Source: Sulfurimonas sp. (GTDB lineage Bacteria > Campylobacterota > Campylobacteria > Campylobacterales > Sulfurimonadaceae). From it: a DNA stretch of 45,248 nt. The DNA is taken from assembly GCA_026988315.1 (NCBI GenBank), contig JALSLJ010000074.1, forward strand, positions 1 through 45,248, given 5' to 3'. The notes beneath the pieces were generated by a model. It made no database searches. It was not told the origin of the DNA and saw nothing but the letters and a program-made list of their open reading frames with translations. Both the position numbers and the translations under genes were made by a program. Shown here in pieces: positions 18,273 to 44,089 of the stretch (positions are counted from its first letter, which is position 1; each line of letters starts with the position of its first letter).

Positions 18273-18370
18273 ATATATTGCAAAATGCCAATTTTTTTTC
18301 TTTAAGAGCTCTTTTTGGCTATACTCTTTTTTTATTTTAATATCATTATTTTTGACTCAGGACTTATCAC

Positions 18371-20569
18371 TTGAAAGACGCTTTATTTATCGTAATTACT
18401 GGAATTTTAACCTATCTTGGTTTTGCAACAATATTTGGAGATAGTGGACTAATTGGAAGCTATGGTGTTGTTTTTGCTTCGTTTAACCATCAGTATTTTG
18501 GATATATCTCATATGTTTATATTTTAATCATGCTTGCACCTCTATATAGTTTTTATAAAAACAGTTCTTTTAATATGCGAAAATTTGAAGTAGCTGTAGC
18601 ATCATTTTTATTGCTCTTTTCTTTTCTTTTAGCCCAAGCAATGTTAGTGGAGAATGAATTAAGAGGTGTGATTGGTGCAGATTTTGTAGATTTTCTCTCT
18701 CCTTATATTGGTCTTTTTGGTTTGTGGATATTTTGGTTGGTGATTACACTTGTTTCTTTTATAATTATTTTAGATAAAAGTACTCATGAATTGGCTTCTT
18801 TGTTATCAGATTTAGTAAAAAGTAAAATACCACAGCAAAAAAAATCAACAGAAATTAAAAAGAAAAGTATTACAAAAGAAAAACCAATAAAAAAATCAAA
18901 TTCACCAGAAGCTCAAGAGATTTTAGAAGAGGAGATTGATAAGCCATCATATTTAAGAAAGGATACCTCTTTTGCTATTCCTACGATAAAAGAAGTAAAT
19001 ATAGTTGAAGATATAGATATTGTAGATACCCCCAAAGAGGAGCAAAAATCGCATAATATTTTAGAGCTCGCTTCACAAGTTAAAGAGCAAAAAAATGCAG
19101 TTATTGTTGAAGAACTTGAAGAAAATGCAAAATTACTAGAGACCATAGAAAAAGGTGAAGTTGAAAAACCTAAAAACTTTACGCTTCCCTCCATAAAATT
19201 TTTGCAAAAACCAGATGCAACATCCCATAGTGTTGATGAGAGTGAACTGGATGATAAAATTCGTTACCTCATAGAAAAACTTGCCCACTTTAAAATTGAT
19301 GGGGATGTGGTGAGGACTTATGCGGGTCCTGTTGTTTCTACATTTGAGTTTAAGCCTGCTGCAAATGTAAAAGTATCTAAGATTTTAAATCTTCAAGATG
19401 ATTTGGCAATGGCTCTCTCAGCCGAGACTATCCGTATTCAAGCTCCTATCCCCGGAAAAGATGTTGTTGGTATCGAAATACCAAACGATACTGTTGATAC
19501 TATTTACCTAAGAGAGTTGCTTGATTCTAAACTATTTAAAGAGTCCGCATCCCCATTAACAATTGCTTTAGGCAAGGATATTGTTGGTAAACCTTTTATT
19601 ACTGACCTTAAAAAGCTCCCCCATCTTCTTATAGCTGGAACTACAGGGAGTGGTAAAAGTGTTGGTATAAACTCCATGATACTTTCACTGCTTTATAAGA
19701 ATTCACCTGATCAGTTGAGACTTCTTATGATTGATCCTAAAATGCTTGAGTTTTCCATATACAATGAGATTCCTCATCTTCTTACTCCTGTAATTACAAA
19801 ACCCAAACAGGCAATAGTAGCCTTAAATAATATGGTTTCAGAGATGGAGCGCCGTTACGAGCTTATGAGTGAAACAAAAACAAAAAATATTGAAAACTAC
19901 AACGAAAAAATAAAAAAAGAGGGTGGGGAGCACTTTCCTTATATGGTTGTTATCATAGATGAACTAGCTGACTTAATGATGACAAGTGGAAAAGATGTTG
20001 AGCATTCTATTGCGAGATTAGCGCAAATGGCACGAGCATCAGGAATACACTTGATAGTTGCAACGCAAAGACCATCAGTTGATGTTGTTACAGGTCTTAT
20101 AAAAGCAAACTTACCATCTCGTATATCATACAGAGTGGGGCAAAAAGTCGATAGTAAGATTATCTTAGACCAAATGGGTGCAGAATCACTTCTTGGTCGC
20201 GGTGATATGCTATTTACTCCTCCAGGTGCTCCAGCTCTTGTTCGTCTTCATGCTCCTTGGAGTACAGAAGAGGAGATAGAAAATATAGTAGAGTTTATAA
20301 AATCTCAGCGCGAACCAAACTATGACAAGAGTTTTTTAGTAGAGGAAAGCGAAACAACATCAAACTCTTCTGCTGATTCATACGAAGAGTTAGACCCTCT
20401 TTATGAAGATGCAAAAAATGTAGTGTTGACAGATAAAAAAACCTCTATATCATACTTGCAAAGAAAACTCCAAATTGGGTACAATCGCTCTGCTAGAGTG
20501 ATTGAACAGTTAGAAAAAGAGGGCATACTCTCTGTTCCTAATGCGAAAGGGATTCGTGAGATACTGTAG
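18371..20569 (+). CDS. ftsK: DNA translocase FtsK
   Basis: Division-site DNA pump that resolves chromosome dimers and moves the terminus region. The 732 residues show an N-terminal block of four hydrophobic helices (to about residue 140), a charged Lys/Glu linker (about 150-280), and the RecA-like motor with Walker A GTTGSGKSVG (423-432), Walker B MVVIIDELADLMM and the FtsK stretch HLIVATQRPSVDVVTGLIKA. A winged-helix gamma domain follows at the end (SISYLQRKLQIGYNRSARVI), which reads orientation sequences. I use a TTG start with AGGA about 8 bases upstream; no better ATG precedes the first helix. The linker is short compared with E. coli FtsK. Confidence 0.95.
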   Translation: MKDALFIVITGILTYLGFATIFGDSGLIGSYGVVFASFNHQYFGYISYVYILIMLAPLYSFYKNSSFNMRKFEVAVASFLLLFSFLLAQAMLVENELRGVIGADFVDFLSPYIGLFGLWIFWLVITLVSFIIILDKSTHELASLLSDLVKSKIPQQKKSTEIKKKSITKEKPIKKSNSPEAQEILEEEIDKPSYLRKDTSFAIPTIKEVNIVEDIDIVDTPKEEQKSHNILELASQVKEQKNAVIVEELEENAKLLETIEKGEVEKPKNFTLPSIKFLQKPDATSHSVDESELDDKIRYLIEKLAHFKIDGDVVRTYAGPVVSTFEFKPAANVKVSKILNLQDDLAMALSAETIRIQAPIPGKDVVGIEIPNDTVDTIYLRELLDSKLFKESASPLTIALGKDIVGKPFITDLKKLPHLLIAGTTGSGKSVGINSMILSLLYKNSPDQLRLLMIDPKMLEFSIYNEIPHLLTPVITKPKQAIVALNNMVSEMERRYELMSETKTKNIENYNEKIKKEGGEHFPYMVVIIDELADLMMTSGKDVEHSIARLAQMARASGIHLIVATQRPSVDVVTGLIKANLPSRISYRVGQKVDSKIILDQMGAESLLGRGDMLFTPPGAPALVRLHAPWSTEEEIENIVEFIKSQREPNYDKSFLVEESETTSNSSADSYEELDPLYEDAKNVVLTDKKTSISYLQRKLQIGYNRSARVIEQLEKEGILSVPNAKGIREIL

Positions 20570-20701
20570 GGTATATATCTTAGATAAGCAAAAATACTTC
20601 ATTCTACCCCTTAACATCTAAATAAATGTATATTTTTCATAAAAATCACTACAAAAAGCTATAAATTAACATATCGAGGGTGAAAAATGAATTTTTTTAA
20701 G

Positions 20702-20751
20702 TTCTTTGATATAATAACTATATCATATGATATAGTTATTATATCAAAGAA
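20702..20751. repeat. Perfect 50-bp palindrome
   Basis: Two 25-base arms, TTCTTTGATATAATAACTAT plus ATCAT and its exact reverse complement, meet with no spacer. Each arm contains TATAAT (20710-20715 on plus, 20738-20743 on minus), so it could hold two opposed -10 elements. As RNA it would make a very long hairpin ending ten bases before the AAAGG of the next gene. Role unknown. Confidence 0.9.
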
Positions 20752-20773
20752 TTACGAAGTAAAGGTACTGCTC

Positions 20774-21166
20774 ATGACTACACCACAGTTCATTTTCACA
20801 AAGTATAGCAATTCGTTTAGTGTATATATTAAAAATTTAGAGCAATTATCAGTAGAACAAATACAAGAGATTCAAATTTTTGTTGCGCAGAGAAAAGGTG
20901 TTTTTGATTTTGAGACTTACTCCTTTGTAATTCAAAAAAGATTGGAGTTTGATGCGTTTGTTTCATTATTGGGATACAGCGAGATTAATGCCGAGTGTGA
21001 AGAGGTAGAATTGATTAGAAAGACTTATGCAAAAATAGACTTTGGAAAATATAAAGGCATGAGATTTAGCGAACTGCCTGATTCTTATCTTATTTGGCTA
21101 AAAGGTAATTATAGAGGAAAAGAGAGAGAAACAATTGATACTGAATTAAAAAGTAGAAATATATAA
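20774..21166 (+). CDS. Small DUF3820-like protein (ExoX C-terminal type motif)
   Basis: A 131-residue cytoplasmic protein. Its C-terminal part has IDFGKYKGMRFSELPDSYL followed by IWL, the pattern of the DUF3820/ExoX C-terminal-like family, which often accompanies exonuclease or nucleic-acid functions; the N-terminal part is not recognised. I take the ATG at 20774, preceded by AAAGG at 20761. A second in-frame ATG at 20687 with a strong GAGGG site would add 29 residues encoded largely by the 50-bp palindrome; since the palindrome looks like a regulatory or inserted element, that longer form is less likely. It stands alone between ftsK and acnB. Confidence 0.6.
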   Translation: MTTPQFIFTKYSNSFSVYIKNLEQLSVEQIQEIQIFVAQRKGVFDFETYSFVIQKRLEFDAFVSLLGYSEINAECEEVELIRKTYAKIDFGKYKGMRFSELPDSYLIWLKGNYRGKERETIDTELKSRNI

Positions 21167-21174
21167 GTTGGCTA

Positions 21175-21268
21175 GTGTTACAAATGTTAACACATATAAA
21201 AATATATATCACTGAAGTGTTTAGATAAGTAACATGCTAATTGTTACTAATTTATATTTGGCTATAAT
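21175..21268 (+). promoter_or_regulatory. acnB upstream region: two inverted repeats and -10
   Basis: GTGTTA/TAACAC (21175-21193) and AGTAACA/TGTTACT with a 7-base spacer (21228-21248) lie upstream of TATAAT at 21263-21268. The second repeat sits where a -35 would be, so it may be an operator controlling acnB; the first may instead be a weak terminator of the preceding gene. Confidence 0.4.
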
Positions 21269-21297
21269 CATTCAAAATTTACCAAACAGGAATGACT

Positions 21298-23862
21298 ATG
21301 GCATTTTTAGATGATTATAAGAAACATACACAAGAGAGAGCGGAACTTGGCGTTCCACCACTAGCTTTAACTGCTGAACAAACAGCAGAGCTTGTTGAGA
21401 TATTAAAAGCTTCACCAATTGTGGAGCAAGACTATGCAATGGATATTTTTGAAAATAAAATCCCTGCTGGTGTTGATGATGCTGCTTATGTAAAAGCTGC
21501 GTTTTTAAATGATGTAGTACAAGGTAATGTTTCTTGTGATGCAATTACACCTGCTAAAGCTTGTGAAATTTTAGGAAAAATGCTTGGTGGATTTAATGTT
21601 ACTCCATTGGTTGAAGCACTTAAAATTGAAGCTATTGCAGATATTGCGGCTACACAACTTAAAAATACAATTTTAGTATATGATTCATTTAATGATGTAA
21701 AAGCTTTAATGGATGCTGGAAACCCTCAAGCCAAAGAGATTATAGAGTCTTGGGCAAATGGTGAATGGTTCACTAATAAGCCAACTATGGACAAAGAGAT
21801 CACAGTTACAGTGTATAAGATTCCAGGTGAAACAAATACCGACGATTTATCTCCAGCTTCTGAAGCGTTTACAAGAGCAGATATCCCATTACATGCGAAC
21901 TCTTTTCTAGTAAATAGAATGGATAACCCTCTTGATACTATGAAAAAGCTAAAAGAAAAAGGTCATCCATTAGCATATGTTGGTGATGTTGTAGGAACTG
22001 GTTCGTCAAGAAAATCAGGAATCAACTCTGTTCAATGGCATATGGGTGTTGATATTGATGGTATCCCTAACAAAAGAACTGGTGGTATTGTAATTGGTGA
22101 TACTATCGCTCCAATTTTCTTTAATACAGCAGAAGATTCAGGATGTATCCCTATTCAAGCTCCTGTTGGAGATTTAGAAACTGGTGATGTGATTACTGTT
22201 AAGCCATTTGATGGTGTTATTGAGAGAGATGGAAAAGTTGTGTCTGAATTTACACTTTCTCCAAATACTCTTCCAGATGAGATGCGTGCTGGTGGTCGTA
22301 TTCCACTTATTATTGGTAAGGGTCTTACTGCAAAAGCTAGAGAAGTTTTGGGTATGGATGCTGGAGATATTTTTCTTGTTCCTGAGCAACCAAAAGATGA
22401 TGGTAGCGGATATACACTCGCACAAAAAATGCTTGGAAAGGCTTGTGGTATAGAGGGTGTTAAACCTGGTATGTATTGTGAGCCTATTGCAACTACAGTT
22501 GGTTCTCAAGATACAACTGGTCCAATGACAAGGGATGAAGTAAAAGAGCTTGCAGCACTTAGCTTTGGTGCTGATATGGTTATGCAATCATTTTGTCATA
22601 CTGCTGCATATCCAAAACCAGCAGATATTAAACTACAACACACCCTTCCAGAATTTTGGACATCAAGAAAAGGTTTCATTCTTCGCCCAGGTGATGGTGT
22701 AATCCACTCATGGTTAAACAGACTTTGTCTTCCAGATACTGTTGGTACTGGTGCAGATAGTCATACTCGTTTCCCAATTGGTATCTCTTTTCCAGCTGGT
22801 TCTGGTCTTGTTGCATTTGCAGGAGTTACAGGTATGATGCCTCTAACTGTACCTGAGTCTGTCTTAGTGAAGTTTTCTGGTACTATGCAACCAGGAATTA
22901 CACTAAGAGATTTAGTAAATGCTATCCCTCATCAAGCTATAAAAGATGGTTTATTAACTGTTGAGAAGAAGGGTAAGAAAAATATCTTTGCTGGAACTAT
23001 AATTGAGATCGAAGGCCTGCCTGATCTTAAATGTGAGCAAGCATTCGAATTATCTGATGCTTCTGCTGAGAGAAGCTCTGCTGCTTGTACTGTTAAGCTT
23101 AACCGTGAGCCTGTAGTTGAGTACCTAGAGTCAAACATTGTTCTTATTGAAGAGTTGATTGCTCAAGGTTATTCTGATGCTGCAACACTACAAAGAAGAG
23201 CAGACAAGATGAAAGATTGGATTAAAAATGGCGAATTGATGGAAGCTGATAAAGATGCTAAATATATCGCAACTATCAACATTGACTTAAACGAAATCAA
23301 AGAGCCAATTTTAGCTTGTCCAAATGATCCAGATGATGTTAAAACTTTAACTGAAATTCATGAAGCTGGTTTACGCACTGAAATTGATGAAGTGTTTGTT
23401 GGTTCATGTATGACTAACATTGGTCTTTTCCGTGCTGCTGGTGAGATTTTAAGAGGCGAGGGTGCTGTTAAAAATAAACTATGGATCTGTCCTCCAACTA
23501 AAATGGATGAAAAAACTCTTCAAGAAGAGGGTTATTATTCTGTATTTGGTATGGCTGGAGCTAGAACTGAGATTCCAGGTTGTTCTTTATGTATGGGTAA
23601 TCAAGCTGCTGTTGCACAAAACGCATGGGTATTCTCAACATCAACTAGAAACTTTGATAACAGATTAGGTAAAGGTTCTCAAGTGTATCTAGGATCTGCT
23701 GAGTTAGCTGCTGTTGTAGCACTTAAAGGTGCACTACCAACTGCTGCAGAATATTTAGAGGTAGTTGCAAATAAAATCACTCCAGAGATGACTGACGAAG
23801 TATATAAATATCTTAACTTCAACAAAGTAGAAAAAGACGCGTTAAGCGCAATGATTAAATAA
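21298..23862 (+). CDS. acnB: Bifunctional aconitate hydratase 2 / 2-methylisocitrate dehydratase
   Basis: [4Fe-4S] enzyme interconverting citrate and isocitrate; in a reductive TCA cycle it runs from isocitrate to citrate. The 854-residue chain opens with [20 protein letters not shown], like E. coli AcnB, and the HEAT-like, swivelling and catalytic domains follow in AcnB order, not AcnA order. Cluster cysteines are visible in FVGSCMTN and GCSLCMGN, and [17 protein letters not shown] is the typical active-site stretch. I use the ATG at 21298, six bases after AGGA; the one at 21292 abuts the ribosome-binding site. It is separated from the main rTCA operon by about 9 kb of envelope genes. Confidence 0.97.
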
Positions 23863-43589: not shown

Positions 43590-43917
43590 CGCAGGTGCAC
43601 CAGATAGTCACTTGAGTAACCTCAAGAGGAAAGTCCGGGCTGCTGTAAGACAGTGTTCCATTTAACTAATGGCCGTAGTGATACGAGGGAAAGTGCAACA
43701 GAAAATAAACTTTTATCCACTTGGATAATAAAGGTGAAAAGGTGGTGTAAGAGACCACCAGTCTTTGTAGCAATACAGAGAGCTTGTAAACCCAACATGG
43801 CAGCAAGAAACAGATGGTCAGCGTCTTACATTGCGACTGTTTCGCTAGAGATACTATGTAAATAGTATAGTAGATTAATGCTATCGTAACAAAACCCGGC
43901 TTATAGTTGCACCTAAG
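43590..43917 (+). ncRNA. rnpB: RNase P RNA (bacterial type A)
   Basis: Catalytic RNA of RNase P, which removes 5' leaders from pre-tRNAs. Universal elements are present in order: GAGGAAAGTCCGGGC (43626-43640), ACAGAAA (43698-43704) and AACCCGGCTT (43893-43902). The ends pair as helix P1, with AGGTGCA at 43593-43599 and TGCACCT at 43908-43914. The length of about 325 nt fits type A. Exact ends are uncertain by several bases. A TATAAAT element lies about 35 bp upstream, right after a TetR-type operator. Confidence 0.95.
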
Positions 43918-44089
43918 TCCTGAGTCAAAAATAACACCAACAGGATTTATAATATACTTATCTATCTTAGAAGATAAGAGAGGTATTTTCAATAGAATTT
44001 ACATTATGTTAACCAGTATCTATCTCCAGTCTTCTTGATACATATTGTTTAATATAAAACTTTTAAGCAACTACAATAAGGAGAAAGTG

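Follow-up and report, generated by a model that had tools for sequence, protein, structure and literature searches.

A perfect palindrome downstream of ftsK

How did a perfect 50-bp palindrome come to lie between ftsK and the gene that follows it in a Sulfurimonas genome, and what might it do there? This palindrome occupies positions 20702-20751 of the window (the whole stretch of DNA analysed, 45,248 bp), with arms at 20702-20726 and 20727-20751 that are 25 nt long each, 100% complementary and separated by 0 nt, as an earlier note on this DNA had described. A scan of the window revealed no other spacerless palindrome with an arm of at least 9. The longest arm in 60 windows simulated with its dinucleotide frequencies ranged from 6 to 11 (mean 8.2), and about 4e-10 arms of 25 are expected by chance. 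The palindrome is real and far beyond chance, and the rarity that had been attributed to it is borne out by these figures.

Internally, it consists of two copies of a 19-bp palindrome, designated P (TGATATAATNATTATATCA) and located at 20707-20725 and 20728-20746, in the arrangement P-TA-P'. The other signals pointed out previously are also present: TATAAT is found on both strands (20710-20715 on the + strand and 20743-20738 on the - strand), preceded by TGA in each case; the AAAGG of a ribosome-binding site starts ten bases past the palindrome end; and an upstream ATG (20687), which is in frame with the downstream gene, has GAGGG before it. The earlier note had also named an assembly artefact as a possible refutation. 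Since the flanks are not inverted copies of one another, and the central 40 bp of the doubled core recur with 40/40 identical bases on another contig (C86), an assembly fold-back is an unlikely origin of the palindrome. The features of the locus are the following:

18371..20569, + strand: FtsK-type DNA translocase gene, the upstream neighbour (NF007615, E 1.2e-155, under the model's curated cut-off)
20570..20773, + strand: gap of 204 bp that relatives lack, from the ftsK stop to the QSregVF_b-like gene
20702..20751, no strand assigned: palindrome, a doubled P with TTCTT/AAGAA flanks
20756..20765, + strand: ribosome-binding site GAAGTAAAGG of the downstream gene, from the sequence
20774..21166, + strand: QSregVF_b-like gene, likely start ATG 20774 (PF12843, E 3.5e-6)

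The family PF12843 (QSregVF_b) was formerly named DUF3820.

The palindrome as the right-hand end of a dispersed repeat

A search for further copies revealed that the palindrome is not unique, being the right end of an intergenic repeat of ~105-140 bp with about two dozen copies in this genome. Each copy is laid out as a left box B (AACATCYAAAAA), an AT-rich middle, and the right palindrome P. The window copy has been delimited as follows:

20613..20751, + strand: repeat element, from the left box to the doubled right palindrome (BLAST, profile and copy alignment)
20613..20624, + strand: left box B (family AACATCYAAAAA, window version AACATCTAAATA), aligned in 21 copies

BLAST of 20566-20775 against its own genome yielded 64 matches at E up to 10, a number that includes the query itself and both strands of the palindromes. 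The best non-self match (158 bp, 77% identity) is on C3, a copy which the window copy resembles leftwards as far as 20592. P occurs exactly at 15 places of the genome, at 26 with at most one mismatch (24 loci) and at 29 with at most two, and a reversed control pattern was found at 0 places of this genome at up to two mismatches. The left box accompanies P at 21 of the 24 loci, and these 21 copies were aligned. When distances of 80-99 bp were scanned, with C3 placed by hand, B was found 83-84 bp from P in 11 of the 21 copies and 94-96 bp from it in the other 10, with none in between, so that the two classes differ by one helical turn; the window copy falls into class 94, and C86 into class 83.

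The conservation of the copies is concentrated at their ends. Identity between copies is 0.81-0.88 in B and 0.77-0.78 in P (most copies having been found via P, which biases the set to intact P), vs 0.47-0.48 in the middle. The middles are nevertheless related, given that shuffled sequences reach 0.33-0.34 (mean z 2.2 over 190 pairs, with values up to 9). Information content rises 2-3 bases before the AACATC of the left box and in the 5 bases past P, and some A-richness is visible further left of B, near -19 and -20. A profile of the B-to-P stretch matched 23 places at E <1e-7, 20 of which had been used in building it; weaker or partial matches include C76, C10, C110 and C31, among others, and the profile search recovered few copies that hold B with a ruined P.

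The family seems to be private to this genome. Exact P was found in 0 of 134 other genomes of the genus, and P with one mismatch at one place each in 12 of them. Under stricter filters, the profile matched once in each of 8 of the 134 (E 7.8e-4 to 9.9e-3), which we read as noise, and none of these genomes holds a convincing copy. Plasmid and phage searches gave no match. Exact P is present in 48 stretches from viral contigs, as is motif A (a second repeat described below) in 11, and these occurrences are taken as chance in a very large collection. Among the matches listed in the open literature on repeats of Sulfurimonas and Campylobacterota, there was no description of a B-P repeat family.

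Some copies show peculiarities of their own. C107 (L055, ~630-760) has the left box twice, 20 bp apart, ahead of P. In C27 (L128, ~810-850), a separate stem-loop formed by AACATCTAAATAAG and its reverse complement stands beside P, its arm resembling the left box, and in C80 (L076/L144, ~330-370) P is contained within a longer exact palindrome (GAGACGAC...GTCGTCTC) with no clear left box.

A doubled P is the exception, as most copies carry a single short P only. It has been found in four copies: that of the window, C3 (with two bases missing), C86, and C88 (with changes). The outer flanks of the doubled forms differ, being TTCTT/AAGAA in the window and AAC/GTT in C86. As the two share their 40-bp core despite different flanks and length classes, their likeness would be explained either by copies exchanging P or by P having been duplicated in inverted orientation together with its flank. 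A symmetric spread of the P flanks by gene conversion was not significant (2.2 vs 1.6 bases, p 0.07).

Probable separation of two adjoining genes

The downstream gene was found in 72 of 100 genomes of the genus searched (own genome counted), and the loci of the 29 best-scoring of the 71 relatives with the gene were compared. All 29 match the protein that starts at ATG 20774 from residue 1-5. In 28 of them, its start codon is -1 to +12 bp away from the stop of ftsK (cases with two adjacent stop codons being counted as -1), and the junction frequently reads TAATG or TGATG; the end of ftsK could not be identified in the remaining locus (L025). An empty site is therefore seen in 28 of the 29, in a comparison that covers the window locus and distant relatives. 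The 204 bp here, vs -1 to +12 bp in relatives, point to the repeat having split a tightly joined gene pair, probably supplying a new promoter. Relatives also lack 65 bp outside the B-to-P stretch, 43 bp on the left of B and 22 bp on the right of P, and the insertion may therefore have exceeded B-to-P in length.

The same comparison bears on the reading frame. ATG 20774 is the likely true start of the gene, and the stretch from ATG 20687 reads as repeat sequence; its 29 residues do not seem to be an old part of the protein, because the gene adjoins the ftsK stop in 28/29 relatives, leaving no room for such a leader. The earlier note, which had argued against simple coding sequence, is sustained on this point, and conservation of the 29 N-terminal residues, which it had named as a possible refutation, is not what the 29 relatives display.

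Elsewhere in the genome, none of the 23 loci other than the window has P inside an ORF of at least 100 residues kept by the script. At C107, P shares 8 bases with the 3' end of a convergent ORF, and at C88 it overlaps with a doubtful ORF of 73 residues. The right-hand gene reads away from P in 14 of 20 copies and towards it in 6 (window counted; C54 is assigned to the 6 because of a distant ORF, and at C33 the contig has no gene on that side), a weak excess (two-sided sign test by hand, ~0.12). Eleven of 21 P ends (20 copies plus the window) lie at most 112 bp from the start of a gene reading away. At least four copies (C79, C96:29148, C107 and C76) are flanked by convergent genes, so that no mRNA would be served by outward transcription from P. 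The neighbouring genes, identified by eye, include gatB, efp, gyrB, purL, gap and serS, without a common theme.

A second private repeat, motif A

The genome also holds 25 exact copies of a motif designated A (TAAGTYCTGAGTCAAAA, often continuing AATAACACCAACTCCAG), with 0 exact copies in the 134 other genomes of the genus and 0 in 397 others sampled from the order, two sets that overlap. The copies in the window are:

18350-18366, - strand: motif A, directly preceding the ftsK start
43914-43941, + strand: motif A

The T end of motif A is sharply defined, whereas its other end is ragged; the motif occurs alone, in inward-facing pairs, or left of B. In 10 of 24 copies of B, its end is found 0-38 bp to the left in the same direction, and at C33 a reversed motif A precedes B. 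The window copy lacks the motif, and a degenerate version to the left of it was not supported (p 0.17). At L085, L090, L094 and L102, inward-facing pairs form elements of ~55 to 180 bp with TA at both ends, an arrangement that resembles a small transposable element. Between two inward-facing copies on C56, no transposase was recognised by eye, as the ORFs of at least 80 residues found there look like host genes.

P as a putative two-way promoter

The earlier note had proposed a symmetric promoter, and P has that form: exact copies carry an extended -10 element, TGATATAAT, on both strands, from which we infer promoter activity. P also fits the sigma70 motif gnTAnaAT of Campylobacter jejuni, where, according to PMC3847290, 948 of 992 mapped starts lie 4-8 nt after this motif, with no -35 box. 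With that spacing, the following starts are predicted in the window:

20707..20725, + strand: first P copy, consensus extended -10 TGATATAAT, rightward, predicted start ~20720-20724 (4-8 nt spacing of C. jejuni)
20728..20746, - strand: second P copy, consensus extended -10 TGATATAAT, leftward, putative start ~20729-20733

A generic promoter scan requiring a -35 hexamer did not list P, and gave 5 sites vs 4.6 in shuffles.

In a single P, the two -10 elements stand back to back, and the starts would be directed outward. In the window copy, where P is doubled, each P unit contributes one element of the consensus pair. The consensus elements lie at the outer sides and face each other, and each P keeps a weaker TATAGT for the other direction; the two directions would thus compete, in what would not be a standard two-way layout. 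According to PMC10268837 and PMC12825309, symmetric -10 regions can initiate transcription in both directions, the distance between the starts being 18, 10 or 23 bp. The starts of a single P would be ~12 bp apart, vs the commonest spacing of 18, 10 being also common (PMC12825309).

A two-way promoter laid out in this manner has a possible natural precedent in nine relatives (L113, L115-L119, L121-L123), where a single near-P, TCATATAATNATTATATCA, is located in one and the same divergent gene pair, which by eye encodes YfiH-type and OvoA-type proteins. The ATG of one gene lies inside this site, and the other gene has its first start codon 16-19 bp past it. The site may thus be a two-way promoter that has been conserved, with one of its two mRNAs almost leaderless.

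The explanation that we favour, with a fair degree of confidence, is that the palindrome is the right end of a private dispersed repeat which splits the ftsK gene pair, and that the two-way promoter P replaces the coupling of the two genes. A private intergenic repeat formed by B, an AT-rich middle and P would have landed between ftsK and the next gene, separating a tightly joined and probably translationally coupled pair. The repeat probably acts as a two-way start point for transcription, the back-to-back extended -10 elements of a single P letting RNA polymerase start outward either way. In the window copy, an inverted duplication of P would have left the consensus -10 elements facing each other, the rightward one probably replacing the lost coupling with an mRNA that starts in the middle of the palindrome, ~50 nt before ATG 20774. 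We give little credence to a bolder version, a transposable two-way promoter module without inverted ends, in which B is phase-locked at 83-84 or 94-96 bp from P and the whole spreads between genes as a unit, rewiring coupled pairs, with both parts selected after landing and P growing by inverted duplication.

Alternative explanations

Instead of a mobile repeat, B and P could form a two-part regulatory signature, B being bound by a regulator that keeps a fixed helical phase with the promoter P downstream of it, and the copies constituting the regulon of that regulator. The far stronger conservation of the ends than of the middle and the two spacings one helical turn apart would agree with such a regulon. 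It is nonetheless improbable considering that the neighbours have unrelated housekeeping functions, that some copies lie between convergent genes, that the middles keep residual homology, that no convincing copy exists in the 134 relatives, and that the single site compared with relatives holds 204 extra bp.

A somewhat less probable proposal is that the hairpin acts on RNA, as an RNase III site or partial terminator in ftsK read-through transcripts, for which the Correia elements of Neisseria offer a precedent (PMC2649163). RNA spanning the entire palindrome has a folding energy of -31.6 kcal/mol (z -6.4), and the RNase III-processed leader suggested in the earlier note is possible for read-through RNA; it does not suit RNA from the palindrome's own consensus + strand promoter, which would contain only half of the palindrome (-5.4 kcal/mol, z +1.0), as the long hairpin would be missing from an mRNA started at ~20720-20724. 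Most copies, moreover, have a single short P. The T-tract/A-tract hairpin that some copies contain between B and P suggested that the element might enclose a conserved terminator or small RNA. This idea was abandoned: over 20 copies, the left portion of the element does not fold consistently (mean z of -1.1 for one strand and -0.4 for the other), with single copies reaching z -5.3. A terminator scan of 20400-21400 detected one site, inside acnB, and none at the element. In Rfam, none of the 12 matches listed for 20400-20900 reached its gathering score, most of them being microRNA models that fit the long palindrome.

Less plausible still, P could be the operator of a Fur/PerR-type repressor overlapping the promoter. 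Fur/PerR 7-1-7 boxes share the core TAATNATTA, and P contains ATATAATNATTATAT and is itself symmetric about one central base. The -10 elements, however, account for the same bases, relatives show no multi-copy site of such a kind, and the neighbours lack a common theme. Finally, an artefact or a chance palindrome can hardly be entertained, even in a draft genome of 112 contigs where C12 terminates, and C58 starts, within copies of the element that are almost identical (probably a single locus broken at P), in view of the expectation given above, the recurrence on C86 and the flanks.

The dispersed repeat among known systems

The preferred reading, a private repeat inserted between two genes, turns an odd palindrome into a definable repeat family of a Sulfurimonas-like genome with a clear empty site in relatives, and provides a testable case of a repeat that would split a tightly joined gene pair and supply a symmetric promoter. 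It also raises the question of what mobilises an element that lacks inverted repeats at its ends. The trace of a mobile element, another suggestion of the earlier note, has gained substance, as the repeat is mobile-element-like and dispersed at about two dozen loci, from which we infer mobility. Comparison of the left 40 bp with the reverse complement of the right 40 bp in 21 copies revealed no terminal inverted repeats (mean z -0.36, maximum 1.4). Target-site duplications were in no clear excess in the 21 copies (mean longest flank repeat 3.9 vs 3.5 across copies), a test in which single copies reached 6 and the element ends are known to a few bases only. The Y1 transposase, the family searched (PF01797), had 0 matches in this assembly, given as 99.85% complete, and the same search was positive in 6 of 14 control genomes. 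Because neither terminal inverted repeats, target duplications nor a Y1 transposase were found, the repeat is not filed as a MITE, a Correia element or a REP.

Three known systems are nevertheless close to it. REP/BIME palindromes with their RAYT, as well as palindrome-ended IS200/IS605 derivatives, are short palindromic intergenic repeats and share this form with the repeat, whereas here no Y1 transposase was found in the genome. The bidirectional promoters based on -10 symmetry described by Warman and colleagues also serve both strands from one symmetric -10 region; according to PMC10268837 and PMC12825309, each of them is a promoter at a single site, in which the two directions share a near-symmetric -10 and the starts are in most cases 18 bp from each other, whereas here two full extended -10 elements adjoin and the unit is a dispersed repeat. 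The third are the Correia repeat enclosed elements (CREE/NEMIS) of Neisseria, which, according to PMC2649163 and PMC2229807, are likewise mostly intergenic, restricted to one genus and ~105-155 bp long in discrete length classes, with promoter sequences at their ends and a possible RNase III hairpin. CREE have terminal inverted repeats and target duplications, neither of which was seen in the repeat described here. In bringing promoter sequences, this repeat would work like a Correia element (PMC2649163, PMC2229807). It represents no new mechanism, but a member, private to this genome, of a type of repeat that is already known.
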